39,518 nucleotides of DNA from positions 1 to 39,518 of the forward strand of contig MKVQ01000045.1 in NCBI GenBank assembly GCA_001899635.1. The letters run 5' to 3'. Origin of the DNA: Myxococcales bacterium 68-20 (GTDB lineage: Bacteria; Myxococcota_A; Polyangia; Polyangiales; Polyangiaceae). Below the pieces are notes generated by a model that did no database searches, was not told the DNA's origin, and saw only the letters and a list, made by a program, of their open reading frames with translations. Made by a program: the position numbers and the translations under genes. Positions 4,765 through 34,370 of this stretch are shown in pieces. The number at the start of each line of letters is the position of its first letter. The stretch's first letter is position 1.

Positions 4765-5946
4765 ATGAATCGACGACCTGGTTCGACCCTTGTCGTATCT
4801 GTCCTAGTTATTCTCGGGTATAGCGCATGTGCCTCTCCCCGTGCCTCGCTCGGGACCTACTCCGACGAAGCGGACGGAGGCGCGGCCCCCCGCTTCCAAG
4901 AAGCGGCGGATGCAAGCGCAGACGGCGCGCCTGCTGCCGCCGAAACGTCGATGTGCCCGAGCGATGAATGCGCCGAGCCGTACGCCACGTGTCCGAGCTC
5001 GCGCCATATCTGCGCAACGCGTCTCGACGACGATCCGCTCAATTGCGGCTCGTGCGGGAACGCATGCCCTGCCGGTACCTGGATGACCGGCGAGCTCAAC
5101 GGCGCAAGTTGGAGTTGTCTCAGCGGGCGCTGCGAGATGACGTGCACGAACCTCAGATATGCCGATTGCAACGGATATGTGGAAGACGGTTGCGAGACGG
5201 CATTGGGCTCGAATGCAAATTGTCGGTTCTGTGGCGAAGCGTGTCCTTTGGGCTACGAATGCCAGGTTGCGCCGCAAGCTATTCTCGGCTGTGTTACGAG
5301 AACGTGCAATTCTCCCCTTGTGATGTGCGGCGACATTTGCACGGACATCAACAAGGACAACCGGAACTGCGGCGAGTGTGGGTACGATTGTGGGGTGAGA
5401 GAGCCGCTGCCGCCTAATACGGTTCGGCCCCCATATATGGTGTATACGTGTGTGGCTGGCAGGTGCAACGTACTGAAGTGCCAGCAGAACTATGCGAACT
5501 GCAATCAGATTATTGACGATGGGTGTGAGGTTGATCTTCGGAACGATCCCCTGAACTGCGGGGCATGCAATGTCGTGTGTGGCGCGGGCGAGATATGCCT
5601 GAATGGGGCCTGCGTGTGCCGGGACCCGTGCTCGTGCGGTGGCAACGACTACGATAGCAATCCAAATCAATGCGGTTCGTGCAATCACGTGTGCCCTGGT
5701 GTGGACGCCGTGATGCCCGGCAGAAAGCCGCCCAAGGGGCATCGTACGTGCCGGGGGGGCCAATGTGGATATGCCTGCGACGAGGGCTGGGCCAACTGCA
5801 ACGGTGACGTGCTCGACGGATGTGAGATCGACGTTCGTTCGGATCCGCGAAACTGCGGATCATGTGGCCATTCGTGTCTCTCGAATCAGGCCTGCGCGAA
5901 CGGTGTTTGCGCGACGAAGCCGTGCTCTTCGGGAGCTCCGCAATGA
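4765..5946 (+). CDS. Cys-rich repeat lipoprotein (operon A, gene 1)
   Basis: 393-aa predicted lipoprotein. The signal peptide ends in the lipobox GYSAC with Cys22, and the +2 residue is Ala, not the Asp that retains lipoproteins in the inner membrane of E. coli. A short acidic/Ala linker leads to six Cys-rich repeats of about 35-60 residues, built on a pattern like DCNG..DGCE..L..DP.NCG.CG..C (for example YVEDGCETALG, then NCRFCGEAC). Cys spacing suggests disulfide-linked modules outside the cell. The family is common in Myxococcota and has no known function. RBS GAGGAAG lies just upstream of the ATG. It starts operon A and overlaps the next gene by ATGA. Its counterpart in operon B is at 33102-34370 and also has six repeats. 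Confidence 0.85.
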   Translation: MNRRPGSTLVVSVLVILGYSACASPRASLGTYSDEADGGAAPRFQEAADASADGAPAAAETSMCPSDECAEPYATCPSSRHICATRLDDDPLNCGSCGNACPAGTWMTGELNGASWSCLSGRCEMTCTNLRYADCNGYVEDGCETALGSNANCRFCGEACPLGYECQVAPQAILGCVTRTCNSPLVMCGDICTDINKDNRNCGECGYDCGVREPLPPNTVRPPYMVYTCVAGRCNVLKCQQNYANCNQIIDDGCEVDLRNDPLNCGACNVVCGAGEICLNGACVCRDPCSCGGNDYDSNPNQCGSCNHVCPGVDAVMPGRKPPKGHRTCRGGQCGYACDEGWANCNGDVLDGCEIDVRSDPRNCGSCGHSCLSNQACANGVCATKPCSSGAPQ

Positions 5947-7097
5947 GCGGCCGTCCTTTCCGCCTCATGGTGATCCCGAGCGGGATCATCGGAGGGGTCG
6001 TGTGGGGGTGCGCCGCCAGCTCGGGGGCACCTTCCAGCGAGCAGCACGGGAACGCAACGGGAGACGCCTCGGAGATTCCCGCGATTACGGCGGTGGACGC
6101 CTCCGACGCGCGACCGGATGGCGACGGTACTTGCAGCGACGACGGCTGGTGCATCGTTGACTATCCTTTGGACGGCGACCTGACGTTGGTGAGCCTGTGG
6201 GGGAGTAGCGAACGCGATGTCTGGGCCGTGGGATCGCGGGGAGCCATTCTCCACTGGGACGGATCGGCTTGGCAGCCATCGAACAGCGGCGTCGACTACG
6301 CGATCCGAAGAGTTTGGGGCAGTGGTCCGGGGGACGTATGGGCCTTCAGCACCCTCAACGGGATTCTGCATAGCTCGGGCTGGGTCGACGGCCAGGCCTC
6401 CTGGTCCCCGGCAGCGTTCTCCACGACAGACGATGCCGATGGGCTGACCGGGGTCCAGCAGACGACGCCCATCGTGAGCGTCTGGGGTGCTAGCGCGACC
6501 GATATCTATGTCGGCACCCTCCAGGTTCCTGGCGGGAGCGTGTGGCATATGAGCGGGTGGAACGACGGTGAACCGCGTTGGCGGCCTATCCTCGAATACC
6601 TGGACTATCATGGTCCCGTCTTCGGGACCGCGGCCACCGATATCTGGGTGGCGGGTTTGAATGGAAAGGCGGCGAACTCGCAAGGGTATAAGAGCGGGAT
6701 TGTCGACTGGACGATCCTTGATACTGGTACGCGCGCAAACCTGAGAGGGTTGTGGGGCGGGGCGCACGACGACGTTTGGGTCGTCGGGGACACTGGTACG
6801 ATCCGTCATTGGACCTACGACGACGACGGCGAACTGCGCTGGTTGGTCTCCGAGTCGAACGTGACAAGACCCTTGAACGCGGTCTGGGGCAGCCGTCCAG
6901 ACGACATCTGGGTGGTCGGAGAGGGAAATACGGTTCTCCACGGCGACGGAGAGAGTTGGTCGCGCTCGAACATTCCATCCGTCATTCCTGCCGAGACGCG
7001 CCTGTTCGACGTCTGGGGAACTGCACCCGACAACGTGTGGATCGTTGGCGACAACGTCATTCTCAACCGGCGCCGTCCTTCGGAGATGTCCCGATGA
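5943..7097 (+). CDS. Trp-rich seven-repeat propeller lipoprotein (operon A, gene 2)
   Basis: 384 aa. The start ATG overlaps the previous stop (ATGA); the frame is open further upstream, but the lipoprotein signal (VVWGC, Cys23) fixes this start. After an Asp/Ala linker comes the Cys pair CSDDGWC, then seven repeats of about 45 residues marked by WGSSxxDVWAVG-type strands (LWGSSERDVWAVG, VWGSGPGDVWAFS, VWGASATDIYVGT, FGTAATDIWVAG, LWGGAHDDVWVVG, VWGSRPDDIWVVG, VWGTAPDNVWIVG) alternating with ILHWDG-like strands. This predicts a seven-bladed beta-propeller on the cell surface. No enzyme motif is seen. It is a paralogue of the next gene and of the two propellers in operon B. Confidence 0.85.
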   Translation: MSGRPFRLMVIPSGIIGGVVWGCAASSGAPSSEQHGNATGDASEIPAITAVDASDARPDGDGTCSDDGWCIVDYPLDGDLTLVSLWGSSERDVWAVGSRGAILHWDGSAWQPSNSGVDYAIRRVWGSGPGDVWAFSTLNGILHSSGWVDGQASWSPAAFSTTDDADGLTGVQQTTPIVSVWGASATDIYVGTLQVPGGSVWHMSGWNDGEPRWRPILEYLDYHGPVFGTAATDIWVAGLNGKAANSQGYKSGIVDWTILDTGTRANLRGLWGGAHDDVWVVGDTGTIRHWTYDDDGELRWLVSESNVTRPLNAVWGSRPDDIWVVGEGNTVLHGDGESWSRSNIPSVIPAETRLFDVWGTAPDNVWIVGDNVILNRRRPSEMSR

Positions 7098-8248
7098 AGC
7101 ACGTCCTCATCGTTGCTCTGTTTGCCGTGAACGCCGTTCGACTCGCGGCGTGCGCATCGTCGGAGGTCGAGGCGCCGGACGCCGACGGTGGGCCTTCCGT
7201 CAATCCGCCTCCGCCGGAGGCTGAGCTTCCTCTGGACGCAAGCCCGAGCTCCGACGTCATTGATGCCTCCGCGCCGGACGACGCGTCTACGGAGTGCACC
7301 GAAGGCGGTTGGTGTCGAACGGCCGTCCCGCGAGGGCGCGACGGCGGAGTCCTGAGCCTCGCCGACGTCTGGGACCACGGCGGCGGTGATGTCTGGACGA
7401 TTGCCGAGGAAGGACTCGTCCTGCACTGGGAAAAGAGTGGATGGTCCGTCGCCTTCGATGCGGGAGTCACGCTTACCCATCTTTGGGGGACGGAAGGGGG
7501 AGGTCTGTGGATCGCGGGCAAGAACGGCACGCTCCTTCATCATGCCCCAGGGACCGCCCCTTCTATCTGGGAAGTCGTACCCATCGGAACGACGGCCGAC
7601 CTCATTTCCGTCTGCGAGGGGACGGCTCAGAGTCCCGCCTCGCGCAACGTCTGGGTGGCCGCCTCGGTTGGCACGACGAGTACTGTGTTTCATTGGGACG
7701 GCGCCACGGGTAGCGATGGTAAGCCGACATGGGCATCGAGCGCGATGACGCTCGCCCAGGCGAGGACGATGCGATGTGTCGACAATCGCGTCTGGCTGGC
7801 CGGGCTGAGCGTGAGTCCCTATGGATCGTTCATTCGCGTCAACGACGGCACCGGCTGGACATCGCCAATAGCGCCGCCTGCATCGAAACAAGATGACGGG
7901 GTAAACTCACTCTGGATCGCAGGTGAGTCGGACCTGTGGCTCTCCTCGGAGCGCGCGTTGTTTCATCGGACGGCGGGCGACGCAGGGGTTCCGGTCTGGG
8001 CTTCCTACCCCATCGATCTAGCGTTTTTCGCCCCGCCTATGAAGTTCTGGGCCGCGAGCGCGAGCGATCTCTGGATCGCCGGCAGACATGGACGGATCTA
8101 CCACTGGGATGGGAGCGAGATGCGGATCTCGCCGACGTCACGGAATGGAGCCATTCTCGATAGCCGGCTGAGGGGGATCTCCGGAAGTGCCGACGATGTT
8201 TGGGTCGTAGGGGACAATGTGGCTCTCCATCGCAAACGTTCGGAGTAA
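7094..8248 (+). CDS. Trp-rich seven-repeat propeller lipoprotein (operon A, gene 3)
   Basis: 384 aa, the same length as its upstream neighbour. The start is an ATGA overlap with that gene. The lipobox is RLAAC with Cys20, followed by an Asp/Pro/Ser-rich linker (to about residue 65) and the Cys pair CTEGGWC. Seven diverged repeats follow (VWDHGGGDVWTIA, LWGTEGGGLWIAG, a degenerate third ending NVWVAA, CVDNRVWLAG, LWIAGESDLWLSS, FWAASASDLWIAG, ISGSADDVWVVG). The repeats are more degenerate than in gene 2. It is predicted to be a surface-exposed beta-propeller; ligand unknown. The stop lies 4 bp before the RCC1 gene, so co-expression is very likely. Confidence 0.85.
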   Translation: MKHVLIVALFAVNAVRLAACASSEVEAPDADGGPSVNPPPPEAELPLDASPSSDVIDASAPDDASTECTEGGWCRTAVPRGRDGGVLSLADVWDHGGGDVWTIAEEGLVLHWEKSGWSVAFDAGVTLTHLWGTEGGGLWIAGKNGTLLHHAPGTAPSIWEVVPIGTTADLISVCEGTAQSPASRNVWVAASVGTTSTVFHWDGATGSDGKPTWASSAMTLAQARTMRCVDNRVWLAGLSVSPYGSFIRVNDGTGWTSPIAPPASKQDDGVNSLWIAGESDLWLSSERALFHRTAGDAGVPVWASYPIDLAFFAPPMKFWAASASDLWIAGRHGRIYHWDGSEMRISPTSRNGAILDSRLRGISGSADDVWVVGDNVALHRKRSE

Positions 8249-8252
8249 TTTT

Positions 8253-9683
8253 ATGCGCCGTATCCATTGCTGGTCCGCCGCAGGCGCCGTGTCGTTCGTT
8301 TCCTTGTGCGTCGGAGCCTGCTCGGCGGACGATGTCATCGGGGCCACGTTGGCGCCGGACGCGAGCGTCGAGCCAACCTCCGATGTATTCGATGGAGGGG
8401 ACGCTGCACCGGTCGACGGCGGCGTCGACCTCGATGCGCTCGATCGCGTCGAATGTGGAGTGACTCCGTGTGTCACCGCGCTTGCGGCTCGCGGCGGAGC
8501 CCATATATGCGCGCTGCTGTCCGACCAAACGGTGCGCTGTTGGGGAGCCAATACAGACGGGCAGCTCGGTCGCGAATCTTTCGACGACGCCAGCGGCGCT
8601 CTCTCCAGCAGCGGCAGGCCGCTCCCCGTCGTCGGGCTCGACAAGGTCACGCAGATCAGCGCGACGGGGCGCGAACGGACGGGGACGAGCTGCGCGCGTC
8701 GCGAGGACGGGGCGGTGATGTGTTGGGGCGGCAATCGACATGGCGAGCTTGGGCTGAGCGCCGACCGGCCAGCCGTCGACGCGAATCCACACCCGACACC
8801 GTCTGCCGTTCAAGGACTCGTCCCGGTACGACGCGTCGACCTCGGCGGATCGTTTGCCTGCGCAACCTCGCCGCCCGACGCGGTGTCCGCAGGAGAGTCG
8901 TCGTTCGCTGACTCCGGCGTCAACGCAGGCGGGGGGAGAATGTATTGCTGGGGCTGGAACGACGCACTCCAGCTCGGGCGAGGTGAGCTTCAGCAAAAGC
9001 ACGGCGTCGCGGGTGAGACGGCCCTCGACTTTCGACGCGTCCTCATTGGCGCCGGCACACTCCGGAATGGCTTTGCGATCCGTGACAACGGGGAGCTCTT
9101 GTCCTGGGGTGGCGCCCTCTTGAGCAGGAGCGACAGCGTCACCAGCACGGCGCTCGATGCCCTGGGGCGTTCGTCGTCCTTCGACGTCGACGGACGACCT
9201 CTATCTATTCCTCGCTTGTACGACGTTCGACGGATATCCGCCGGGGATACTTTCGCGTGTGCGGTGAGCGCCGGCAGCGCGTATTGCTGGGGCCGGAGCG
9301 AGGTCGGTGCGCTCGGCAACGGGACGAGCCAGGACGAACCGGTTCCGTTCGCGGTCCCACTGTCGACGTCGGAGCGCATCGTGGACATCGCCACGAGCAA
9401 CGCGACGACCTGCGCGCGTACGATCGACCGGAACGTCTACTGTTGGGGCGACAACACCAAGGGACAGCTCGGCGACGGTACCGCGCTACGCCAGTTCTAC
9501 CCGCTCCAGGTGAGCGCTCTGTCGCGGGGCGAGGTCGTCCAGATAGTCGCGATGGACGCGGCGACCTGTGCCCTGCTCCGAGAGGGCTCGGTCCTGTGCT
9601 GGGGCAGCAACATCGATGGGCAGCTAGGTCTCGGTGGCGCGGACGATCAGCCGCACTACGTTCCGCAGCCTGTCGTCTTTTGA
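8253..9683 (+). CDS. RCC1-repeat lipoprotein (operon A, gene 4)
   Basis: 476-aa predicted lipoprotein with lipobox CVGAC (Cys23) and a linker rich in Asp and Val. A conserved preamble VECGVTPCVTALAA precedes seven RCC1-type blades, recognised by CWGxNxxGQLG strands (CWGANTDGQLG, CWGGNRHGELG, CWGWNDALQLG, SWGGALLSR, CWGRSEVGALG, CWGDNTKGQLG, CWGSNIDGQLG). RCC1 proteins fold as seven-bladed propellers; the secreted bacterial versions have no known partner. The start is the ATG 4 bp after the previous stop, chosen for its position and the signal peptide. The operon B counterpart (29310-30650) shares the preamble pattern and seven blades. Confidence 0.87.
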   Translation: MRRIHCWSAAGAVSFVSLCVGACSADDVIGATLAPDASVEPTSDVFDGGDAAPVDGGVDLDALDRVECGVTPCVTALAARGGAHICALLSDQTVRCWGANTDGQLGRESFDDASGALSSSGRPLPVVGLDKVTQISATGRERTGTSCARREDGAVMCWGGNRHGELGLSADRPAVDANPHPTPSAVQGLVPVRRVDLGGSFACATSPPDAVSAGESSFADSGVNAGGGRMYCWGWNDALQLGRGELQQKHGVAGETALDFRRVLIGAGTLRNGFAIRDNGELLSWGGALLSRSDSVTSTALDALGRSSSFDVDGRPLSIPRLYDVRRISAGDTFACAVSAGSAYCWGRSEVGALGNGTSQDEPVPFAVPLSTSERIVDIATSNATTCARTIDRNVYCWGDNTKGQLGDGTALRQFYPLQVSALSRGEVVQIVAMDAATCALLREGSVLCWGSNIDGQLGLGGADDQPHYVPQPVVF

Positions 9684-9728
9684 CGTGAGAGAGCGATTCT
9701 AGGCGTTCACCCGCAGCGAGGGACCACG

Positions 9729-11630
9729 ATGTCGTCACGGTCAGCTTTTCAATCTGCCCTTCGGGCTGTCCGGCGGCTCTCGTCCGGATTTCGGGTTAGT
9801 TCGGTGAAGGGAGGCGCTCACCTCTGGCCGATCGTCGTCCTCGCAGGAGCGCTCGGATTCTTCGGGGGGGCGAGCGCATGCAGCGCGCGTTCACGCATCT
9901 TCGATCCCGACGAGGTCGACGCCGGTGGTGTCGCCGTGGACTTTTCATCCGATGCGTCGCCCTCCTCCTCCTGTAACGGCGACCTGCGACGCTGCTCGCG
10001 AGATCTGCACTCCCTCGTGGACGACTGTACGGGTGCCGTCGTGATGGAGTGCCCATCCGACCAGGGGTGTGCGAACGGAAAATGCGTTCCCGCTTGCGAA
10101 AGCGCGGAGGAGAACTCGGGCACGATCGGTTGTTCTTTCTGGACGACGCCGTCGGCCGGTGAGCGATTCGACGAGAGCCGAGGCGGTTGCTTCGCCATGT
10201 TCGTGGCCAACTCGTGGAATAGCCCCGTTCAGCTTCACGTCAGCTACGGGGACGAGGCTATCGACTTCTCGGAGGCCACGTACTTGCCTCGCGCGAATGG
10301 TGGTGAGCTCGAGTACGAGCCGTTGAACGGACCGCTTCCCCCGGGCGAGCTGGCCGTCATCTTCCTCTCTCACGATATGAACCAGAGCGATGCAGTGTCC
10401 TTCGTTGGATGTCCTCGCGCGCCCGGGCGCAAGGCGATGTCATTGCCCATGACTTCGGACAAGACGAAGGCGTTCCAACTGACGACGGATCGCCCGGTCA
10501 GTGCCTACTCCATGTTCCCTTACGGTGGCGCCAAGAGTCACGTTCCCACGGCCACGCTACTCATTCCAACTTCAGCATGGGGGAACAATTATCTCGTCAT
10601 CGATGCGTGGCCCGGGCCGGAACGGGTGAGAATCGGCACGACGAGGGCCGCGCTTCAGATCGTGGCTGCGGATGACGACACGCATGTCCGGATTGGGACC
10701 GAGCTGAATCTCCCCCCTGGGGTCGCGTCGTCCGTGCTGCAGGGTCGCACGGAGATTACGCTCTCGAAGGGCGAGCTCCTGCACGTCATCCAACCGAAGG
10801 AGCTGACGGGAACCCCGATCGAAGCCGACAAGCCGATCGCCGTGTTTGGCGGGGCCGAATGTCTCAATATCCCTGCGGACAAGGGGGCGTGCGAAAGCGC
10901 TCAGCAGCAGATTCCTCCGATTCGTGCATGGGGAACGGAGTATGCGGGCGTCCGATATCCCAACCGCCTCGCGGTCTATGATCCGGGGATGTCGAACGTC
11001 ACGGAGGAGCTCGTTCCATGGCGCATCGTCGGGGCGGCCAACGGCACCGTGCTCAAGTACGACCCTGCTCCGCCTGCAGGCGCGCCAGAGAGGTTGTCCC
11101 AAGGGCAGGATGCGATGTTCTGGTCCAATACACCCTTCGTCGTGAAGAGTCAGGATGCGGAGCATCCTTTCTATCTTGCTGGCTACATGACCGGCTGCGA
11201 GTCTATTCCTGAATTGACGGTTCGCGACTATCCGGGAGATCCGGAGTTTGTGAATGTTGTTCCGGCGCAGCAGTATCTCGACAAGTACGTGTTCTTTGCG
11301 GACATGTCCTATGCGTACACGAGCCTGGTCGTCGTTCGTCGGGATGAGGGGCGAGGGTTCGAAGATGTGCGTCTGGACTGTGCGGGGCTCATTGCCGATT
11401 GGCGACCGATTGGCAAAGATGGGCGCTTTGAATATGCTTATGTAAATATGGTGCGCGGTTTTAGGCCGCAGTCGTTCCCCGCCGGAGAGTGTACGAACGG
11501 CGTGCATGAGATTCAGAGCAATGGCCCCTTCACCGTGACCGTCTGGGGCTTCGGCAGAGCGTCGAGCTACGCCTATCCGGCAGGTGCGGGTGTGCGCACG
11601 CTCTCGGCTACGCAGGTGTCCGTCAGATAG
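9729..11630 (+). CDS. IgGFc-binding-protein-like lipoprotein (operon A, gene 5)
   Basis: 633 aa. A long basic N-terminus leads to a hydrophobic segment and the lipobox GASAC (Cys51); an in-frame GTG near 9804 could be the true start, giving a normal-length signal. An N-terminal Cys-rich part (SCNGDLRRCSRD, then CANGKCVPAC) is followed by a large beta-rich region typical of the IgGFc_binding N-terminal family seen in Myxococcota (markers NNYLVIDAWP, ADDDTHVRIG, GELLHVIQ, PIAVFGG, GTEYAGVRYP, PFYLAGYMTGC, FTVTVWGFG). Despite the family name, no immunoglobulin binding should be assumed. The 45-bp gap to gene 4 is compatible with co-transcription. In operon B this position is taken by a vWA protein. 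Confidence 0.82.
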   Translation: MSSRSAFQSALRAVRRLSSGFRVSSVKGGAHLWPIVVLAGALGFFGGASACSARSRIFDPDEVDAGGVAVDFSSDASPSSSCNGDLRRCSRDLHSLVDDCTGAVVMECPSDQGCANGKCVPACESAEENSGTIGCSFWTTPSAGERFDESRGGCFAMFVANSWNSPVQLHVSYGDEAIDFSEATYLPRANGGELEYEPLNGPLPPGELAVIFLSHDMNQSDAVSFVGCPRAPGRKAMSLPMTSDKTKAFQLTTDRPVSAYSMFPYGGAKSHVPTATLLIPTSAWGNNYLVIDAWPGPERVRIGTTRAALQIVAADDDTHVRIGTELNLPPGVASSVLQGRTEITLSKGELLHVIQPKELTGTPIEADKPIAVFGGAECLNIPADKGACESAQQQIPPIRAWGTEYAGVRYPNRLAVYDPGMSNVTEELVPWRIVGAANGTVLKYDPAPPAGAPERLSQGQDAMFWSNTPFVVKSQDAEHPFYLAGYMTGCESIPELTVRDYPGDPEFVNVVPAQQYLDKYVFFADMSYAYTSLVVVRRDEGRGFEDVRLDCAGLIADWRPIGKDGRFEYAYVNMVRGFRPQSFPAGECTNGVHEIQSNGPFTVTVWGFGRASSYAYPAGAGVRTLSATQVSVR

Positions 11631-11654
11631 GTCGCGGCTTTTACGGCCTCGACA

Positions 11655-11690: not shown

Positions 11691-11694
11691 AAGC

Positions 11695-12954
11695 ATGAAC
11701 TTCAAAGCGGCGGCGCGTAGCTGGAGCATTGTGCAGTCTTTCGCCCTCGCGGGGTGTGCAGCCGCAGATGCGCCGCGAAGCGATTTCCCTCCGGACGCTT
11801 CGCAGGTCGACGTACTCGAGCGCGACGGCGGCATCGACGACGCGTCTGCCTCGGACGCCGACTCCGAGCGTCATCGAGGTCCGCGAGCGGACGCTGGCGT
11901 CGGAGAGGAGTCTACTGTCGAGGATATGTGGGCTGGACCCGCCATGACTTGCGCGCGGGTGAATCGTTCGGGCGTCGTCACCACGAAGTGTTGGGGGGAC
12001 AATCGGGCGGGGCAGCTCGGGCGCGGGGAAGCTTCTGCTACTTCGGTGGAGACCTTCGTTCCTCAGGCGATCCTGATGGATGATGGCTCGCAGGTCGTGG
12101 CGGTACGGAATACCATCGATTACGCAACTCAGAAGGTACGGACGTGCATTGTTTTGCGCGACAAGACCCTGAAGTGCTGGGGGAGCCGGTGGGACTCGAT
12201 CGATCCTCTGGCTGGCGTGGTGACTGCGCCGCCTGACGTGCCGTTGCTCGCGGGCGTCGAGGACGTGAGAATGGGGGAGGGGTTTCTTTGCGCGCGTCTG
12301 GAGAGCTCGAACGTCGCATGTTGGGGGGCCAACCAAGACGGCCAGCTGGGGCTCGGAACGCGAGACTATTCCCTTCACGAGCTTCCCGCAGAGATTCCGA
12401 ACTTCACAGCCGACGAGATCGCACTCTCGAATAGCCTCGCATGCGGAAGGAAGGGAGGTGAGGTGTCGTGTTGGGGCGGCTGGGGATCCAACTCCTCGTT
12501 CGGTTCTAGTCCGACCAAGGTCGCGGATCTGCACGGTGTGACCCAGATCCGTGGCGGCGGAGACGCCGTGTGTGCACTTGCGAGCGACAGCACGATCTGG
12601 TGCTGGACCGCGGATGGGGCGATGTCGCATCTGCTCGACCCGACGGAGGCTGAGCCGCAGCGCCTGCTCGAAAACGTTGCGGAGTTTGACATGGGGTCGA
12701 AGGCAACGTCGATCTTCCTCAGGATGAAGGATGGGACTGTGCGTTTTCGCGGGGCGGCGAACAACGCTGCGATCGTCACGTCAACCGTCGAAGGCATCGT
12801 GGATCCGATTCGCGTCGTCCTCGGACAGTCGCACCAATGCGCGATCATGTCCGACGAGACCGTTCGATGCTGGGGGGCGAACGTCTTCGGGCAGCTCGCC
12901 GTCGATCCGAAGCTCTTGAAGCAGAGCTCTCTGTCGGTGAAGGTCCATTTGTAA
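11695..12954 (+). CDS. RCC1-repeat lipoprotein (operon A, gene 6)
   Basis: 419 aa. The ATG follows an AGAGGAAGC ribosome-binding site generated by a short tandem repeat. The lipobox is ALAGC (Cys21), then an Asp-rich linker. There are seven RCC1-like blades, several degenerate: CWGDNRAGQLG, CWGSRWDSID, CWGANQDGQLG, CWGGWGSNSS, CWTADGAMSH, RFRGAANNAA and CWGANVFGQLA. The frame is open upstream through the tandem repeat, but that extension is low-complexity Arg-Ser and lacks a signal peptide, so it is rejected. It sits 64 bp after the IgGFc-binding-like gene. Role as for other secreted RCC1 proteins: unknown, probably protein or ligand binding at the cell surface. Confidence 0.85.
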   Translation: MNFKAAARSWSIVQSFALAGCAAADAPRSDFPPDASQVDVLERDGGIDDASASDADSERHRGPRADAGVGEESTVEDMWAGPAMTCARVNRSGVVTTKCWGDNRAGQLGRGEASATSVETFVPQAILMDDGSQVVAVRNTIDYATQKVRTCIVLRDKTLKCWGSRWDSIDPLAGVVTAPPDVPLLAGVEDVRMGEGFLCARLESSNVACWGANQDGQLGLGTRDYSLHELPAEIPNFTADEIALSNSLACGRKGGEVSCWGGWGSNSSFGSSPTKVADLHGVTQIRGGGDAVCALASDSTIWCWTADGAMSHLLDPTEAEPQRLLENVAEFDMGSKATSIFLRMKDGTVRFRGAANNAAIVTSTVEGIVDPIRVVLGQSHQCAIMSDETVRCWGANVFGQLAVDPKLLKQSSLSVKVHL

Positions 12955-21549: not shown

Positions 21550-21564
21550 GGACAATGCCTCCGT

Positions 21565-27013: not shown

Positions 27014-27997
27014 ATGTTTCACACCGGCAGACGCCTGATGGCGGCCGCTCTGATTCTGCTGCAGTGCGGGTGCTCTCCTTATTCCCTTCCGCCGGCGTCG
27101 CGCCATGAGCTCCCTTCCACGCTCTCGGCGCTCGGGCTGTACGCTGACCTTCGGGCGGGCGAGGTCGTCGCGGACGTTCGGCCCTACCGGCCGTCGTTCG
27201 CCCTGTGGAGCGACGGGGCTACGAAGCGGAGATGGATCCGGCTGCCGGCGGGAGCGACGATCGACACGTCGGACGTCGACGCGTGGCGATTCCCGGTCGG
27301 AACCGAGCTCTGGAAGGAGTTCTCGGTCGGCGGCAAGCGCATCGAGACGCGCATCCTCCGGAAGGTGAGCCGTGAGGACGACGGCTGGGCAGCGATGAGC
27401 TACGCGTGGACCATCGCTCAAACCGAGGCGTTCGCCGCGCCGGACGGAGTGATCGACGCGCTCGGCACGCGGTACGACGTTCCGTCGTCCCGCACCTGCA
27501 TGGCGTGTCATGGCGGACGGCCCGAGCGCGTACTCGGCTTCGGTGCGGTCCAACTTGCCCACGAAGCAAAGCAGGTCGACGACGTCACGCTCGATCGGCT
27601 CGTCGAGGAAGGGCGGCTATCGGTCGAGCCAAAGAAGCCCATTCGCGTGCCCGGTACAGCGGAAGAGGCCGCCGCCATCGGCTACCTCCACGCAAACTGC
27701 GGCCACTGCCACAACGGAGGCCGCCCACCGGACGCGACGTACTTCCGGCCGCCGCCCACCGTCGACTTTGGCTTGCGCGTGCAGGACCTCACGTCGGTGA
27801 CGTCGACGCGTGCCTACGCGACTGCCGCGCGCTTCTCGATGGGGCTCAATCCCGCCGGCAGCCACCTCGTTCTCCAACGAATGACGCGAGAGGGGGCCTA
27901 CCGACGACGAATGCCGCCCATCGCAACGGAGATCGTCGACGACGAAGGCGTTGCGCTCGTCAGAGCGTGGCTGGAGCGTCGCCTCGCCGATCGCTAG
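27014..27997 (+). CDS. di-haem c-motif lipoprotein (SO_2930-like)
   Basis: 327 aa. The signal peptide ends near LLQCGC (Cys18 or Cys20), then a domain with ALWSDGATKRRWIRLP and WRFPVGTELWKEF, typical of the SO_2930/cytochrome-like family. Two CxxCH haem motifs are present: CMACH at 162-166 and CGHCH at 229-233 (GYLHANCGHCHN). It is probably a periplasmic or surface electron-transfer protein, or an oxidoreductase domain of unknown substrate. It is divergent from the RegB-type kinase across 86 bp, so redox control by that system is plausible. Its 3' end is 170 bp from the convergent operon B. Confidence 0.82.
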   Translation: MFHTGRRLMAAALILLQCGCSPYSLPPASRHELPSTLSALGLYADLRAGEVVADVRPYRPSFALWSDGATKRRWIRLPAGATIDTSDVDAWRFPVGTELWKEFSVGGKRIETRILRKVSREDDGWAAMSYAWTIAQTEAFAAPDGVIDALGTRYDVPSSRTCMACHGGRPERVLGFGAVQLAHEAKQVDDVTLDRLVEEGRLSVEPKKPIRVPGTAEEAAAIGYLHANCGHCHNGGRPPDATYFRPPPTVDFGLRVQDLTSVTSTRAYATAARFSMGLNPAGSHLVLQRMTREGAYRRRMPPIATEIVDDEGVALVRAWLERRLADR

Positions 27998-28167
27998 TCG
28001 AGGTCCTCGAGCTCTGCGTCGATACGGTCGTCGAGATCGTCCCGCGGAGGTCGAGCGGCGAGGCGGAACCGAGACGGCGAACTGCCGCCGTAGGAAGGTC
28101 AGAGGTCAGCCGTCAAGGTGAAGTCCGGACGCCAGGGCGCACAGCGAGGCGCTTTCGATTCGCCTGT

Positions 28168-29313
28168 TCACCGCGGGACGCGGCAGCCGAGCTCGACGTC
28201 GACGCGGCCGGACGGAACGCCCGTGACCGCCGAGCACGACGTCCCGCGCAAGACCACCTTCGTGGGACTCTCGTCGTCGTCGAAGGACCAGCCGTTCTCG
28301 GCGTCCTTCGGGATGGGCGTCGCGACTCCTTCGCGATCGGTGACCGTGACCTTCACGTCTCCGAGGTCGGTGTAGTCGTTCCGAGTAAAATAGAACTCGC
28401 ACGACGCGGAGAGCGCGCGGATCTCGTCGAGCGCCGCGATGAGCGCCTTGCGGATATCGTCACTCACGCCGTTTGGGACGATGTGAAAGTGGCAGACCTT
28501 GGCGACATCGAGGGAATCTTCTTCGCATCCTGCCGGCGCCGTGCCTCCCGCGACGGCGACGCGTCCCATGAAATCGACCCCTTGGCCTTGAGCCAAGGGC
28601 AAGATCGCGACCGAGAACGTTCGAATCGAGGGCGTCGATTCGTACTTCGCCTTGACGAGCGGGACGATCCGATTCGTCGAGTCGTCCGTCGGCGCACCGT
28701 CGCTGAGGAGGACGACGACGCGCTTCGTCTCCGAGACCTTGAGCCCCTGATTGCTTGGCGGCTCGAACGCCTCGATGACGTTGTACGCGCGCGTGAGCCC
28801 CCAATAGGTCGGCGTTGTGCCGTACTCGTCGGTGCCACCGCCCACTCCCGAGACATCGATGATCTCGACCATCGAGTCATAGTGCGCCTTGTCGAGGAAG
28901 GACCCGGGGCGAATCGTGTACGTCGACGGGAAGAAGCTGAGGCCGATGAACGTCGACGCGTCGGCGGTCGCCTGCAGATCCGCGAACGAGGCGAGGGACG
29001 CCTGGCGGGTTGCGGGCCAAATGCCGCCGTATTGCATCGAGAGAGAGGTGTCGACGAGGAACTGAATGACGACGGGCACGCGCTCGATCGGCGTCATGGA
29101 CGACGAGCAGCTTGGAGCCACCGGCGCGGCGTCGGTCCGGCCTGCGTCAGCGTCGTCCAAGAGACGCTGGTCGTCGGGCCGGGATAGGGGCTCGCGATCG
29201 CTCCCGCACGATGCCAAGACTAGGGCCGCAACAACGCCGAGCCGCGTAAGGATCGTGAGGCGCGGCGTCGACGAGATCGCCATCCGAGAAGGCAGGTTCA
29301 TGCGTGGCTTCAT
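28168..29313 (-). CDS. von Willebrand factor A lipoprotein (operon B, gene 5)
   Basis: 381 aa. The start ATG overlaps the upstream RCC1 stop (ATGA). The lipobox is LASC (Cys36), then an Asp-rich linker. The vWA domain spans about residues 79-290, with the metal-ion-dependent adhesion site DTSLS at 88-92, a likely Thr in the GGTDEYGTTPT segment, and the third motif SDGAPTDD. A Cys-containing beta region follows to the end. vWA domains with an intact MIDAS usually bind protein ligands through a divalent cation. It is the last gene of operon B and takes the place of the IgGFc-binding-like gene of operon A. Confidence 0.87.
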   Translation of the reverse strand: MKPRMNLPSRMAISSTPRLTILTRLGVVAALVLASCGSDREPLSRPDDQRLLDDADAGRTDAAPVAPSCSSSMTPIERVPVVIQFLVDTSLSMQYGGIWPATRQASLASFADLQATADASTFIGLSFFPSTYTIRPGSFLDKAHYDSMVEIIDVSGVGGGTDEYGTTPTYWGLTRAYNVIEAFEPPSNQGLKVSETKRVVVLLSDGAPTDDSTNRIVPLVKAKYESTPSIRTFSVAILPLAQGQGVDFMGRVAVAGGTAPAGCEEDSLDVAKVCHFHIVPNGVSDDIRKALIAALDEIRALSASCEFYFTRNDYTDLGDVKVTVTDREGVATPIPKDAENGWSFDDDESPTKVVLRGTSCSAVTGVPSGRVDVELGCRVPR

Positions 29314-30650
29314 TGAAAGTTCACCTTCATAGGCACAGGGTGGAGCGCGGCGTCGCGCGAGCCCTGTCCGAGCTCGCCGAAGAGGTTGGCGCCCCAACAG
29401 AAGACCTCACCGCTCTTGTCGAGAGCGCACACGGCGTGCGTCGTCGTCCCCACCCGAACCGCGTGACCTCCGAACGCCTTCACGTGGACGAACGAAGGCG
29501 CGAACGCGTTGGCCTCGCCGCGCGTCGACTCGGAAGCGCCCGCGCAGTAGACCGAGCCTGTCGTCGTGTGGACGCACGTTGCGCGCGCAGACGCCGCAAT
29601 GCCTAGAGGCCACGTGTTTCCGGTCAACGCCAGCGCTGCCGGGGTCGGGAGCTTGGTCGCCATGGAGTACCCTGTACCGAGCACCCCGTACGCGTTCTGT
29701 CCCCAGCAAGCGACGCGGCCACCCGCGATCGCGCAGGCGTGCGCGGGGCCCGCGGTGAGCGCGGTGACGTCGGCGAGGCTGAGCGGCACCATCGCGGCGG
29801 TTGGGGTAAGCGACGACTCGCGCCCGGAGACGGTCCCCCAGTTGACGAGCCCGGCGTCTGCGGTCAGGCCGTAGAGTGACTCGTCGCTGCTCGCTACCTG
29901 CTTGATCGCGAAGCCGCCGCGATCCGCGAGCGCGGGGCCAGCGACCATCGCGCTGGTGCCTGCATCGGGGCGCGCGAGCGCACCTTTGTCATTTCGCCCC
30001 CACACGTAGAGGTCGCCAGCGGCGGTGAGACCCGAGACGGTCCGGCGCCCCACATCGATCCGCGCGAGCTTGCTCGGGAGCGGGATCGTCTCCCGGCTCG
30101 AGTGTGGGAGCGTGTCGACGACGCTGCCGCCGTCACCGTCGGTTCGCGCGAGCTGCCCGTGCTCGTTCGAGCCCCAACACGCAGCCTCTCCGTTGCCGAG
30201 GAGCGCGCAGGTCACGAGCCCGTCGGAGGAGAGCTGCGTCGCGCCCGTCAGGTCCTTGACTGCGCTCGGGCCCGGCACGTGCTCGTCGTCGCTGAACCCG
30301 AGCGCGCCCCTCGCGTTCGCGCCCCAACACTGGACTGTGCCGCCGTCGAGGAGCGCGCAGAAGTGGTTTTCGCCCGCGACGAGGTCCGTGACGCACGGCT
30401 GCCGGGCCGCTTGGGCGCAGACGACCGTCTGGACCGCCGCGTCGTACTCAGGAGGTCCCGCGTCGGCATCGGGAGGAGCAGCGCCAGCGTCCCCGGACGG
30501 CGGCGGCTTCGTCACGACGTCCGGTCCGGCGTCCGTCTCGACGAAAGGCACGGCGCGCTCCTCGTCAGCGCACGCGGCGATCGCGGCGAGAGCCAGCGCC
30601 GCGATGGCGGCGCGAGAAGCACGCATGAGCGTCGAGCTACGAGTCTTCAT
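29310..30650 (-). CDS. RCC1-repeat lipoprotein (operon B, gene 4)
   Basis: 446 aa. ATGA overlaps lie at both ends. The lipobox is AIAAC (Cys27), and the linker is rich in Asp, Pro and Ala. The preamble VVCAQAARQPCVTDLVAG parallels VECGVTPCVTALAA of the operon A counterpart. Seven RCC1-like blades are seen: CWGANARGALG, CWGSNEHGQLA, VWGRNDKGALA, NWGTVSGRES, CWGQNAYGVLG, CAGASESTRG and CWGANLFGELG. It is a predicted surface-exposed seven-bladed propeller. Its close match in order and preamble to the gene at 8253-9683 indicates common descent of the two operons. Confidence 0.87.
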   Translation of the reverse strand: MKTRSSTLMRASRAAIAALALAAIAACADEERAVPFVETDAGPDVVTKPPPSGDAGAAPPDADAGPPEYDAAVQTVVCAQAARQPCVTDLVAGENHFCALLDGGTVQCWGANARGALGFSDDEHVPGPSAVKDLTGATQLSSDGLVTCALLGNGEAACWGSNEHGQLARTDGDGGSVVDTLPHSSRETIPLPSKLARIDVGRRTVSGLTAAGDLYVWGRNDKGALARPDAGTSAMVAGPALADRGGFAIKQVASSDESLYGLTADAGLVNWGTVSGRESSLTPTAAMVPLSLADVTALTAGPAHACAIAGGRVACWGQNAYGVLGTGYSMATKLPTPAALALTGNTWPLGIAASARATCVHTTTGSVYCAGASESTRGEANAFAPSFVHVKAFGGHAVRVGTTTHAVCALDKSGEVFCWGANLFGELGQGSRDAALHPVPMKVNFQ

Positions 30651-31918
30651 GGCGTGCCCTTGTGAAGCGAGATGCCCTGGCCGACTACCCAGATATCGTT
30701 AGGACTGGAGCCCCATATGCCATTCAGATTCTCGACGACGGGATACGACAGCGCGGTCCCCGCGGCTCGCCACGCCGAGCCGTCCCAGTGATAGATCCGA
30801 CCGACGTCTCCGACGACCCATACGTCGTCCGGCGCCGCCGCCCAGCCGCCGTTGGTTTTTGCCCACCTGCCCCTTTGGGCGCCTGTCGCTATCTCTCGGC
30901 TCGGGAACAGCTCGTTCTTCCAGGTGATCGTCCCGTCGTCTTCGCCGCTCGGCGCAATCGAGCAATAGGCGACGTTGCTGCCGAAGAGGTAGAACGTCGA
31001 CGGCGCGATTGCGAAGGCAGTACCCGAGTTGGCCTGCGAGTGTGTGCAGACGCGCGCCGTCGCGTCGTCGTATTGCACCCAGGTGGTGGTTCCGTCCGCC
31101 TCCGAGCTACGCCGGAAGACATGCAGGCGGTTCGATCGGACACCGGCGGCCCACACGTCGTCGGGCCCGGTACCGAAGACCTTGTAGAACGAGAATCCGC
31201 TCGGTGGGTTGAACGACGAGTCGATCTCCCAGCGTCCCGCCGTACCTCCTTGGGGTGGCACGTATCGAAGGAGGTCTGCGGCAGGGGAGCCGCTCTCTCG
31301 TGAGCGTCCGCCCGCCACGGCCCAGATGGTCGACGCGCCGGCGCCCCAGATGGAGTGAACGACCTGTTTGTCGGCCGTCACTTTCACGGGAGAAGGAAGC
31401 TCCACCTTCGACCACGTGAGGGTCTCCGGGCTCGCGCCGGTGCCGTGCAGGAGGTGCCGATCGCCGCCCACCCAGATATCCGTCGGGCCGCTCCCCCAGA
31501 TCGAGTGGAGCGCAGGGGCTCCGCTCGAGACTGGCAAATAGTAACTTCTCGTCCAGGCCGCGCCGTCCCATCGGAGGATTTGCCCCTCCAAGCTCGCGGC
31601 CCAGGCGGTGCCTTGGCCGTCGCCCCACACGGCGTTGAGCGTTTGGCGACCGGGGACCGGGATATGGCACCAGCCCTCGTCCGTGCACGGACGTGCCGGC
31701 GCAGCGTCGACCTCGTTCGCAGCGTCCGGCGACGCATCGACTACGCCGGCGTCCTCCTCGGAGCGCGACGCGTCGTGCCCGCCGTCGAGTGCCGGGCGGT
31801 CCGCTGCGTCAGCGTCGTCGTCGGTGGTCTCGACCGTTCCGTCGCTGCACGCGAACACGCAGAGCGCGAGCGCCGTGACGGGTGGGGTCCATCGAAGAAG
31901 GTACGGAAAGAACCGCAT
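30647..31918 (-). CDS. Trp-rich seven-repeat propeller lipoprotein (operon B, gene 3)
   Basis: 423 aa from the ATG that opens the signal peptide (MRFFPYLLRW); the frame extends upstream, but only into the previous gene. The lipobox is CVFAC (Cys24), then a long Asp/Ala linker and the Cys pair CTDEGWC. Seven repeats follow with VWGDGQGTAWAAS, IWGSGPTDIWVGG, IWGAGASTIWAVAGG, VFGTGPDDVWAAG, AIAPSTFYLFG, WAAAPDDVWVVG and IWGSSPNDIWVVG. It is predicted to be a seven-bladed propeller at the cell surface. It starts 11 bp after gene 2 and overlaps gene 4 by ATGA. Confidence 0.85.
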   Translation of the reverse strand: MRFFPYLLRWTPPVTALALCVFACSDGTVETTDDDADAADRPALDGGHDASRSEEDAGVVDASPDAANEVDAAPARPCTDEGWCHIPVPGRQTLNAVWGDGQGTAWAASLEGQILRWDGAAWTRSYYLPVSSGAPALHSIWGSGPTDIWVGGDRHLLHGTGASPETLTWSKVELPSPVKVTADKQVVHSIWGAGASTIWAVAGGRSRESGSPAADLLRYVPPQGGTAGRWEIDSSFNPPSGFSFYKVFGTGPDDVWAAGVRSNRLHVFRRSSEADGTTTWVQYDDATARVCTHSQANSGTAFAIAPSTFYLFGSNVAYCSIAPSGEDDGTITWKNELFPSREIATGAQRGRWAKTNGGWAAAPDDVWVVGDVGRIYHWDGSAWRAAGTALSYPVVENLNGIWGSSPNDIWVVGQGISLHKGTP

Positions 31919-31929
31919 CGAAAAGCTCC

Positions 31930-33105
31930 TCACGGGGTCCTGCCTGCCAAACGAACGATGACGTCGCCACCTACCGCCCACACGTCGTCCGCGCCGCTCC
32001 CCCAAACGCCTCGAAAGTCAGGGACGATGCCCGGGGCCAGGGCCACGGTGGAGAGGCTCCAGCTCGTCCCGTCGTAATGCACGATCGTGGCTTCGTCCCC
32101 CACCGCCCAAATGTCCGTCGGGCTCGAGCCCCACACCGCGCGTAGCGTCTTCTTCGTCGGCACTTCGACGATGCGCCAGCGCTCGTCGTTCGGGCCGAAA
32201 TGACGGATGGTCCCGAACGCGCCCACGGCCCAAACATCCTTCGGGCTCGAGCCCCAGAGCCCGTGAAGGGCGTAGTCGGACTGCGCATCGAGCGACGTCC
32301 ACGTGAGGGCCCCGGTGCCGTCGACCGTGCCGTCCGTGCGCGACGACATCGAGCCGTGCGGAGAGGAGGTCAACGGGCCAACGATCCATACGTCGCCTTG
32401 GCCGCTTCCCCAAATCGCGTTCACTCGGAGCGGCGCAGCGGCGACCCAGCCGGCGCCGCCGTCGACGACCGCGCTCCGCCAGAGGCCGCCCGTCGTCGTC
32501 CCGCTACCGCTGGCCCCAACCCACACCTCGCCCAAGGGGGACACCCAAAGAGCGCCGAGGGCCATGTGGTGACGGCGGCGATCGGTGCCCAAGATGCTCG
32601 CGAACGACGCCGTCTCGACGACGCCCGCGCGGTCGGGCTCGAAGCCCGTCGAGCAGGCGACGAGCGACGGCGTGCTGCTGATCCAGATCTCCTGAGGGCC
32701 GCGGCCTCTCACGTTGAACAACGCCCCCTCAGTGTCGAGCGCAGTGGCTGTCCACGTGGCGCCGTCCCAATGAAGGACCCGCCCCTGATTGCCGACGACC
32801 CACACGTCCTCCGGGCTGGAGCCCCAGACGTTCAGGAACCCGAAACGCCCGGTGAGCCCGCTGTCGACGGGGCACCATGCGGCGCCACCGCATGGCCCTT
32901 CGTCCGCGCACGCGTCGCCGTCACACCCCGCGTCCTCCTTCGGGCCGACATCGGCGGCGAGGTTCGTGTCGGGCGCCGCGTCCGGAAGAGGATCGAGCAG
33001 ATCGACCTCCGCGGTCTCGCTGCAGCCCATCATCCATATGGCGAGGGATGCGGACACGAGGCCGAGCGTGGCGAAGAGCCCCGTCCAAGGGGAGCGGCGC
33101 ATCAT
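31930..33105 (-). CDS. Trp-rich seven-repeat propeller lipoprotein (operon B, gene 2)
   Basis: 391 aa. The first of two adjacent ATGs overlaps the stop of gene 1 (ATGA). The lipobox is WMMGC (Cys28). The linker is Asp/Pro-rich and the Cys-containing cap is CGGAAWC. Seven strongly conserved repeats are marked by VWGSSPEDVWVVG, VRGRGPQEIWIS, LWVSPLGEVWVGA, IWGSGQGDVWIVG, LWGSSPKDVWAVG, VWGSSPTDIWAVG and VWGSGADDVWAVG. It is predicted to be a propeller of the same type as the other three in this window. No catalytic motif is visible; it probably binds a ligand or partner protein. Confidence 0.85.
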   Translation of the reverse strand: MMRRSPWTGLFATLGLVSASLAIWMMGCSETAEVDLLDPLPDAAPDTNLAADVGPKEDAGCDGDACADEGPCGGAAWCPVDSGLTGRFGFLNVWGSSPEDVWVVGNQGRVLHWDGATWTATALDTEGALFNVRGRGPQEIWISSTPSLVACSTGFEPDRAGVVETASFASILGTDRRRHHMALGALWVSPLGEVWVGASGSGTTTGGLWRSAVVDGGAGWVAAAPLRVNAIWGSGQGDVWIVGPLTSSPHGSMSSRTDGTVDGTGALTWTSLDAQSDYALHGLWGSSPKDVWAVGAFGTIRHFGPNDERWRIVEVPTKKTLRAVWGSSPTDIWAVGDEATIVHYDGTSWSLSTVALAPGIVPDFRGVWGSGADDVWAVGGDVIVRLAGRTP

Positions 33106-34370
33106 TGCGGCACCTCGTTTCCACACGAGACCATCAAGCACTGACCACCGACGCAGGGCTGGCCTGCGGCAAGGTCGCAGGCTTGGTGGCACGCGCCGCA
33201 ATGCGCGCTGCTGATCATCAGGTTCGTCTCGCACCCGTTGGTAGGAATGCCGTCGCAGTCACCCCAACCGTCCGCGCAGATGATGTCGCAAGCGCCGGAG
33301 CGGCAAACCCTCCGTTGGTGGTATTCGGGCCGATCGTCGCCTGGACACTTGTTGTTGCACGCGCCGCAGTTCTCGACGTCTTTGTCCAGATTGGAACACC
33401 CATTCGTTGAGCCCCCGTAGGGGTTCGGACAGAGCGTCTCGCCGGGATCGCACAAGCACTTGAGCGCGTACGCGTGGTCATATGCGCAAGTCTGCCCTTC
33501 TCTGCACGCGTTCCCGCATGCAGCGCAGTTCTGCGCATCGGTGAGCGACGTCTCGCAGCCATTGTCCGACCGTCCGTCGCAGTCACCCCAGCCCATCTTG
33601 CAGACGATCGCCGCGCACTCACCGCCGTCGCATGCGTATTCCTGGTTCAGCTCTGCGGGGAGGACGGGCGTATCGCACTGGACGCCGCAGGCGCCGCAGT
33701 TCTGGTAGTGCGTGTCGAGATCGACACACGCCCAGTTGGTAGTCGCACTACAATCGGTCAGGCCCGCGGGGCAGCCACATACGCCGCCCCAACATTTGAC
33801 GCCGTCTGCGCATTTGTTCCCGCAGGCGCCGCAGTTGTTGGGGTCATCGTAGAGGTCCGTCTCACAGCCGTCGTCCATGCTGCCATTGCAGTCTGTGAAG
33901 GCGTCGGTGGAGAGGTTGTTGAAGCAGCTTGGTACGCAGACGCCGTCGACGCAGTTGGTCGTGATGTGAAGAACGTCGAGCCTCTGGGTGTTGATGCTGC
34001 CACCGCCCCCGCCTCCCGGGTTCGGGACGAAGAACGAGTGGGTCGGACACACGTTGCCGCATCGACCGCAGTGGTTCGGGTCGGTACGCAGGTCGACGCC
34101 GCATTTCTCAGTCGTCGTCCCGTCCGCAGCCACGCACGTCGCGAGCGGGTATGGGCACGTCGTGCCCACGCACGAGAGCACCTGCTCCGGCACCGCGCCG
34201 TCGGGCGCGGTGGACGGATCCCCGACGAACACGCCGCCGCCCGCGTCGGGGTGAGCGTCCCGGCCAAAGTCGGCGACGCGTGGGTCGCTCGAGCAGGCCA
34301 GAGCGAGCGCCATAGGGAACGCGATGACGGTCGCCGCGAGGCGCGCCTCGGGTTTCAACGGTAGTTTCAA
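33102..34370 (-). CDS. Cys-rich repeat lipoprotein (operon B, gene 1)
   Basis: 422 aa. The start is TTG at 34370, supported by GAGGAAG about 6 nt upstream and by an immediate signal peptide with lipobox LALAC (Cys26); no ATG is suitably placed. Six Cys-rich repeats follow the pattern of the operon A counterpart (NGSMDDGCETDLYDDPNNCG, NGCETSLTDAQNCAACG, NGCETNLMISSAHCGACH). A Gly-rich loop (NPGGGGGGS) interrupts the first repeat. It is expected to form disulfide-linked modules outside the membrane. Such proteins are sometimes mislabelled tryptophan synthase in databases; nothing here supports that. It is first in operon B, with a Fur-box-like palindrome 75 bp upstream of the start. Confidence 0.85.
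   Translation of the reverse strand: MKLPLKPEARLAATVIAFPMALALACSSDPRVADFGRDAHPDAGGGVFVGDPSTAPDGAVPEQVLSCVGTTCPYPLATCVAADGTTTEKCGVDLRTDPNHCGRCGNVCPTHSFFVPNPGGGGGGSINTQRLDVLHITTNCVDGVCVPSCFNNLSTDAFTDCNGSMDDGCETDLYDDPNNCGACGNKCADGVKCWGGVCGCPAGLTDCSATTNWACVDLDTHYQNCGACGVQCDTPVLPAELNQEYACDGGECAAIVCKMGWGDCDGRSDNGCETSLTDAQNCAACGNACREGQTCAYDHAYALKCLCDPGETLCPNPYGGSTNGCSNLDKDVENCGACNNKCPGDDRPEYHQRRVCRSGACDIICADGWGDCDGIPTNGCETNLMISSAHCGACHQACDLAAGQPCVGGQCLMVSCGNEVPQ

Follow-up and report, generated by a model that had tools for sequence, protein, structure and literature searches.

Two opposed operons of predicted surface lipoproteins, here called unit A (plus strand) and module B (minus strand), lie in the window studied here, a 39,518-nt stretch of contig MKVQ01000045.1 from the 11.9-Mb genome of Myxococcales bacterium 68-20. 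We found that they belong to a family of about 130 loci in this genome, and that the locus consists of two halves of different descent: a regulatory half with genes for a predicted outer-membrane barrel (O), an extracytoplasmic function (ECF) sigma factor (S) and its presumed anti-sigma factor (A), and a surface half with genes for a Cys-rich lipoprotein (C), two Trp-rich propellers (T1 and T2), an RCC1 propeller (R) and an IgGFc-binding-like lipoprotein (I). The halves are joined inside the C gene, and the 6.9-kb surface half, from the body of C to I, has repeatedly been placed behind different regulatory halves, both in this genome and between species. We read the loci as a repertoire of sigma-controlled surface complexes that would have been re-wired by cassette exchange, a reading to which we assign a probability of roughly 0.6.

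The locus recurs across a tenth of the genome

Searching the genome with a profile built from the window's two Cys-rich proteins gave 184 matches, representing 138 separate genes. Genes were called with a codon model in 136 stretches around these Cys-rich genes, and families were assigned by profile hidden Markov models; of the 138 modules, 124 read C-T-T-R, six C-T-R, two C-T-T and one C-T, while five hold C alone, four of them cut by contig ends. Clustering of neighbouring genes in the fetched stretches yielded four more large families, with 131 members for S, 128 for I, 118 for O and 113 for A. The next called gene upstream of C shares its strand in 132 of 137 modules, and in 110 of those 132 it belongs to A (the gene caller overlooks some A genes, including the window's own); the next called gene downstream of the module is I in 127 of 134. 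The standard unit reads O-S-A-C-T1-T2-R-I, and all eight genes are present in 84 modules.

The seven families cover 1,206,535 bp, or 10.1% of the genome, with 1,028 genes on 38 contigs, a total that includes nine RCC1 genes outside modules (139 versus 130). The median span is 9,433 bp from O to I (96 units) and 6,904 bp from C to I (121 units). Overlaps of 4 bp are usual between S and A (68 of 95), C and T1 (94 of 121), T1 and T2 (98 of 121) and R and I (74 of 121), and S to I is therefore probably a single operon. Five contigs of the genome start (C16, C40 and C52) or end (C34 and C46) within Cys-rich genes, as though the assembly broke off at the repeats.

An earlier note on this DNA had taken unit A and module B for duplicates of an ancestral four-gene module, since fitted with different ligand-binding genes. 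The ancestral module is borne out: C, T1, T2 and R are co-inherited by position (Mantel r 0.87–0.94) with few supported tree conflicts, and the position-by-position comparison of gene trees that the note had proposed separates 248 propellers from 124 modules into first- and second-position clades, with none misplaced and a support of 0.998. Because the two positions form two clades, the ancestral module had both propellers. The idea of a duplicated pair has to be abandoned; the family has about 124 modules, among which A and B are only distantly related, and by blast each ranks only 32nd to 122nd among the matches of the other (C 118th and 122nd, T1 32nd and 34th, T2 46th and 54th, R 69th and 41st). 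Nor is the IgGFc-binding-like gene an accessory specific to A, being the standard fifth gene of the cassette across modules.

The two halves have different histories

Co-descent was analysed in the 84 complete eight-gene units, with tree splits counted at a support of at least 0.95. Mantel correlations are 0.75–0.78 within O, S and A and 0.87–0.95 within C, T1, T2, R and I, but 0.05–0.14 between the two blocks. The same nearest neighbour is found in 35–43 of the 84 units within the regulatory block and in 36–52 within the cassette, as against 2–9 between them. The trees agree: 44 of 45 O-S-A splits conflict with supported T1-T2-R-I splits, 52 of 54 do so in the reverse comparison, and of the 15 supported O-S-A cherries only one recurs in the cassette tree. 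Within the blocks, conflicts number 0 of 39 for O-S against A, 0 of 23 for the body of C against T1-T2-R-I, 2 of 23 for the body of C against R-I (3 of 49 in reverse) and 1 of 42 for T1-T2 against R-I (2 of 49 in reverse). A and C are separated by 137 bp or less throughout the 84 units, and mispaired genes are therefore not the cause of the two histories.

The border between the halves lies inside the C gene

The change of history can be placed along the C protein. Over alignment columns 1–45, which comprise the signal peptide, the lipid-bearing Cys and the tail that follows it, nearest neighbours are shared with O-S-A in 25 of the 84 units and with the cassette in two; over columns 46–90 the figures are 4 and 23. 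By descent the tail of C belongs with O-S-A, and finer windows locate the switch at about columns 45–60, a low-complexity linker ahead of the first Cys of the protein body.

At the DNA level, the 16 closest cassette pairs in the set of 84 units form, with one exception, single alignments of 6,808–6,979 bp with 78–88% identity, running from the C linker to the end of I; the exception aligns in two pieces. Among 121 units, 18 pairs (20 units) have I proteins more than 80% and up to 89% identical. In 16 of these pairs the left border falls 3–16 bp 5' of the first body Cys codon, and in the other two 58 and 62 bp; the right border ranges from -16 to +85 bp relative to the I stop codon, with a median of +1.5 bp. 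Their sigma factors are 22–39% identical, which is the background (mean 34%). Nearly fixed borders combined with background sigma identity mean that a 6.9-kb cassette stands behind distant regulators, joined in frame within C.

Partners have also changed between species

Relatives were sought with a profile of 26 C proteins, the best 24 first-look candidates being scored in each genome of the genus, family and order and the best five in each genome of the phylum. Full-length relatives (E < 1e-70) occur in 8 of 12 genomes of the genus (the own genome, G001, G003, G004, G006, G007, G009 and G011), which includes metagenome-assembled genomes (MAGs) deposited as Labilithrix sp. (ACE_MYX5, MYX7 and MYX8). 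None was found in the 66 other family and order genomes, which gave weaker, mostly partial Cys-rich matches (best E 1e-47), and among 377 phylum genomes searched at E 1e-50 only the own genome matched, in a sample that has three congeners without C. G003 has at least 40 C matches, some of them partial (from the best 150 of 184 candidates), and G006 has 12; regions of G009, G011, G006 and G003 carry complete or near-complete units, and the four-family order expected in related genomes does recur in these congeners.

Comparison of 25 named loci having S, C and I matches showed both outcomes, kept and changed partners. S and I best match one and the same own unit in six (L197, L199, L205, L209, L256 and L262), of which L209 and L256 match a single own unit from two MAGs; in another three, I agrees with O and A but not with S; and the remaining 16 disagree, with several of the matches weak or mixed and with the I match of L270 belonging to an adjoining unit. 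Three loci clearly switch own-genome partner inside the C gene by DNA: L246 (contig C23 at 83% identity, then C19 at 86%), L218 (contig C6 at 70%, then C16 at 92%) and L270 (contig C40 at 84%, then C17 at 82%). The switch in L247 is less clean, from contig C27 at 70% over short mixed matches to C16 at 83–85%.

Some loci of these relatives have other arrangements. L247/L330 (one locus) and L334, from two related MAGs, have an additional RCC1 gene between A and C (O-S-A-R-C-T-T-R-I). In L201/L318 (one locus) and L207, O-S-A is divergent from C-T-T-R-I, and the cassette has its own upstream region. L320, L321, L323 and L325, from congeners, hold Cys-rich genes without adjoining propeller or IgGFc partners, perhaps a state before assembly of the cassette.

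The regulatory half is old and widespread

The A family is present in 50 of 58 genus, family and order genomes, the own genome included, with at most 16 matches per genome outside the genus. In 40 regions of other genomes picked by A matches (one of them in congener G005), S adjoins A in all 40 and O is present too in 33; downstream stand other genes, often lipoprotein genes. O-S-A is therefore an old, widespread regulatory block with varied downstream genes. In one such region of the order-wide set (for example L276–L315), L294, a downstream gene reads as vWA-like, and these regions are perhaps an undescribed sigma-linked lipoprotein system in their own right.

At E 1e-90, IgGFc relatives occur in 75 of 183 genomes of the order, the own genome and the genus included; outside the genus they were seen apart from the other cassette genes, except on one short contig (G092:C195). 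This 7.7-kb contig (L214/L316), in a MAG of another family (ACE_MYX12), carries unit genes and is perhaps misbinned or the product of a transfer. Among the genomes searched, the joining of the cassette to O-S-A and its amplification are events of the window's genus.

Identity of the parts

All three S proteins scanned match PF04542, PF08281 and TIGR02937 above cut-off, giving sigma70 regions 2 and 4. By alignment, the A family has a short N-terminus, one membrane helix, a Pro-rich linker and a TPR-like C-terminus; A of unit A, whose gene is covered by an own-genome family match at C45:3989-4699, has a weak TPR_14 match below cut-off. Its 4-bp overlap with S, its co-descent with S and its membrane helix lead us to presume that A is an anti-sigma factor. 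O has no Pfam match; its AlphaFold model has an N-terminal alpha/beta domain followed by an eight-strand barrel (mean predicted local distance difference test score, pLDDT, 70), and its closest fold match is the OmpA barrel 9fzc (E 1.4e-4), from which we infer an OmpA-like outer-membrane partner.

The T1 model (mean pLDDT 82.5, predicted template modelling score 0.81) best matches the propeller Ycf48 (2xbg, E 5.8e-11), with WD40 propellers also among the top matches, and has a propeller fold. I matches PF17517 (IgGFc_binding) at 300.5 bits against a cut-off of 25.6, a membership by sequence in which IgG binding itself is putative. C resembles the MXAN_6577-like Cys-rich proteins of NF041328, with E 7e-21 for unit A and 3.5e-23 for module B, but its scores of 74.6 and 82.1 bits lie below the family cut-off of 100.

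The two operons of the window

The gene order first described for both operons holds, every gene named there being open at its coordinates, as do the 4-bp ATGA overlaps or gaps of 4–11 bp within the quartets, which measure -4, -4 and +4 bp in unit A and -4, +11 and -4 bp in module B. The lipobox assigned to every product stands for 10 of the 12, which fit a simple lipobox pattern, the exceptions being A1 (YSAC) and A2 (VWGC). The earlier operon A lacked its regulatory half, O, S and A upstream of C. That the operon products form a putative cell-surface complex is plausible. The features are as follows.

2090..3229, plus strand: O, predicted outer-membrane barrel protein of 379 amino acids, start of unit A (AlphaFold model, fold match and clustered relatives)
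3402..3989, plus strand: S, ECF sigma factor of unit A (TIGR02937 and PF08281/PF04542 above cut-off)
3986..4705, plus strand: A, presumed anti-sigma factor or sensor of unit A (family alignment; 4-bp overlap with S)
4765..5946, plus strand: C, Cys-rich lipoprotein of unit A, A1 (Stig1 PF04885 above cut-off; NF041328 below cut-off)
4954..11630, plus strand: predicted surface cassette open to exchange in unit A, starting at nt 4954 (first body Cys codon in C) and ending at the I stop
5943..7097, plus strand: T1, Trp-rich propeller lipoprotein, A2 (AlphaFold model and fold match)
7094..8248, plus strand: T2, second Trp-rich propeller, A3 (in the second-position clade of the propeller tree)
8253..9683, plus strand: R, RCC1 propeller lipoprotein, A4 (PF25390, E 8e-56; six RCC1 stretches)
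9729..11630, plus strand: I, IgGFc-binding-like lipoprotein, standard fifth cassette gene, A5 (PF17517, E 1.6e-89)
11695..12954, plus strand: extra RCC1 gene 3' of I, found in a cassette subfamily, A6 (Pfam scan)
13232..15175, plus strand: lipoprotein with TNFR_c6 and RCC1 matches, 277 bp beyond A6, of uncertain unit membership, A7 (Pfam scan)
33102..34370, minus strand: C of module B, B1 (NF041328 match below cut-off)
31930..33105, minus strand: T1 of module B, B2 (in the first-position clade of the propeller tree)
30647..31918, minus strand: T2 of module B, B3 (in the second-position clade of the propeller tree)
29310..30650, minus strand: R of module B, B4 (147 bits with A4; RCC1 family by profile, outside the Pfam scan)
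28168..29313, minus strand: vWA-like lipoprotein replacing I, B5 (PF00092 at E 3e-4, below cut-off)

The cassette extent in unit A is extrapolated from the borders of the 18 pairs of other units, its own nearest relatives being too distant. Beyond the quartets, spacings are 45 bp for A4/A5, 64 bp for A5/A6, 277 bp for A6/A7 and -4 bp for B4/B5; an RCC1 gene follows I in seven own modules, unit A included, and in L197–L199. Unit A is a standard member of the family and module B an odd one, lacking sigma and IgGFc genes: none of O, S and A is called alongside it, and a vWA-like gene stands where I is expected (architecture '<.CTTR.x'). By position, blast scores are 124 bits for A1/B1, 150 for A2/B2 and 147 for A4/B4; A3/B3 is weak at 58 bits, compared with 105 for A2/B3, and blast alone fails to pair the propellers.

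Elsewhere in the window, positions 37465-38308 (plus) and 39489-38622 (minus) hold facing copies of an ArsR-like regulator gene beside an SRPBCC/AHSA1-like gene, named by reading the sequence, and two adjoining minus-strand genes at 20095-23214 resemble the DUF1552/DUF1592 pair.

Weighing the readings

If the loci are sigma-controlled and re-wired by cassette exchange, a ligand or contact sensed by O or by the surface complex would be relayed via O and A and would release S; released S would transcribe its own operon and display that surface complex; many loci would make a repertoire of separately switched complexes; and cassette exchange would re-wire which signal displays which complex. This scheme is drawn by analogy with the sigma/anti-sigma loci of Bacteroides (PMC3878776). 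A bolder form supposes about 130 slots of sigma factor, anti-sigma factor and barrel, all closed by a lipoprotein signal and tail, that take interchangeable five-gene cassettes through dedicated recombination at a fixed border in the first lipoprotein gene, with signals and complexes freely combined. We think this form unlikely; if true, slot-and-cassette recombination would be a categorically new route to surface diversity.

Several observations weigh against our reading. The small correlations between the blocks mostly exceed permutations, so that the halves are not wholly independent, and in 5 of the 14 closest O-S-A pairs the cassettes, of one subtype, have an identity of 0.55–0.60, where the median pair is at about 0.33. 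In 14 of 138 modules, some of them next to the end of a contig or stretch, the four genes upstream include no called S. Neither Pfam nor NCBIfam gives a recognised anti-sigma domain, FecR included, in the three A proteins scanned. The exchange is visible as evolutionary divergence (the closest cassettes have 88% DNA identity), and no live switching is seen. k-mer counts of five regions revealed no shared promoter or border motif, with no dedicated search made for inverted repeats or a recombinase; a strong signal upstream of I was R coding sequence, while ACGATTT stands before S in 16 of 111, and in some of the units such upstream k-mers may be genuine. At the left border, conservation of synonymous codons does not exceed that in the rest of C, and this ordinary codon use speaks against a conserved nucleotide site there. 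Finally, the C lipoprotein tail is at most a possible signalling plug. The pattern C-x(2,9)-[VIL]-x-[LIVFM]-G occurs in 40 of 112 C tails as against 7 of 422 tails of T1, T2, R and I, and in six of nine tails encoded downstream of A across 20 further regions (19 outside the genus; L293 in a congener where C was not found), but it had been written after several of those nine were seen; in a prospective test on 20 fresh regions it occurred in 2 of 11 tails, compared with 4 of 56 control tails (P 0.25).

Whole O-to-I units might instead be mobile, as passengers of some mobile system, with mixing of halves a by-product of unequal crossing-over between neighbouring C genes. In the six between-species whole-unit matches (two of which involve a single own unit), similarity in DNA begins 19–95 bp before O in five and 412 bp before it in L199; it ends 0–17 bp after I in four and continues over the extra RCC1 gene in L197 and L199. 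One flank of L262, the single flank searched and without a synteny baseline, matches the own genome piecemeal, at positions far apart, and 14 of 100 neighbouring unit pairs lie less than 12 kb apart. The flank test was nevertheless short: wherever no other unit lay close by, the stretches reached less than about 1 kb upstream of O and about 2.6 kb downstream of I; moreover, we saw no recent whole-unit duplicate, the closest O/S/A pair being 71% identical with cassettes at 57%. We consider this explanation possible but doubtful. Ordinary, non-adaptive gene conversion among paralogues, with borders fixed where chimeras are tolerated (a disordered linker and the operon end), is an account we would entertain only tentatively. 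It agrees with the unexceptional codon conservation at the left border and with the linker being among the most variable stretches of C, and selection for fitting partners alone would purge chimeras within the cassette. Conversion needs shared stretches, however, and the paired units have no recognisable DNA similarity left of the border; breakpoints are also rare in the homologous 6.9 kb, as the few conflicts within the cassette show (0 of 23, 2 of 23 and 1 of 42 in the comparisons above).

Cassettes might also be switched between sigma slots within a population, as a changeable coat in the manner of antigenic variation. The modular halves, the nearly fixed borders, the size of the repertoire and I proteins that reach 89% identity despite distant sigma factors would all suit such live variation, but no identical recent copies exist among the 121 units compared, the divergence observed is between species and between loci only, and no silent cassette store was recognised, though none was specifically searched for; we regard it as improbable. 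An artefact of assembly or gene assignment is the least probable explanation by far. The genome is a draft of 52 contigs with 4.2% contamination, and contigs break inside Cys-rich genes at the five places noted; against this, A and C are never more than 137 bp apart in the 84 units, the junction of the two histories falls in a single gene, even the closest cassettes show a DNA difference of about 12%, too much for easy mis-joining, and separate assemblies show the same pattern.

Relation to known systems

A sigma-coupled surface repertoire is an already known type of system: Bacteroides polysaccharide utilisation loci combine ECF sigma and anti-sigma factors with SusC/SusD in many copies per genome (PMC3878776). 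The loci described here are alike in tying many copies of a sigma factor and a membrane, here presumed, anti-sigma factor to outer-membrane surface genes. They differ in having a predicted small OmpA-like eight-strand barrel and Cys-rich, propeller, RCC1 and IgGFc-like lipoproteins, and in their roughly 130 copies whose halves have changed partners. The parts that define the Bacteroides loci were looked for and not found: SusC-, SusD- and FecR-like families had no match in the scanned unit A proteins, nor FecR in three A proteins.

In Bacteroides receptor shufflons, recombination alters which surface receptor goes with a given regulator (PMC12548429). The surface genes paired with a regulator have changed here too, probably by recombination. 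Shufflons are invertible segments at single loci, whereas a 6.9-kb five-gene cassette has changed partners between loci genome-wide in the present case. The SitA polymorphic lipoprotein toxins of myxobacteria have modular N- and C-terminal parts (PMC8546572). Our loci share with them a myxobacterial lipoprotein family of modular N- and C-terminal parts, but no toxin domain was matched in the scanned unit A proteins, and partner change joins regulators to a five-gene surface set. No account of this system appeared in the open-access literature, judged by titles among the matches listed. We know of no counterpart to a nearly fixed-border exchange between sensor and surface halves, nor of another bacterial genome with a tenth of its DNA in one repeated surface locus with its own regulators.

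Regulatory and surface halves that change partners amount to a natural experiment in the re-wiring of sensors and outputs, and more than 100 paralogous pairs of sigma factors and their partners could be used for studies of specificity. The products would most likely serve as recognition or adhesion surfaces (for prey, glycans or kin) or as a changeable coat against phages or predators. If they are recognition surfaces, myxobacteria would have in them a new repertoire for interacting with prey, kin or phages.

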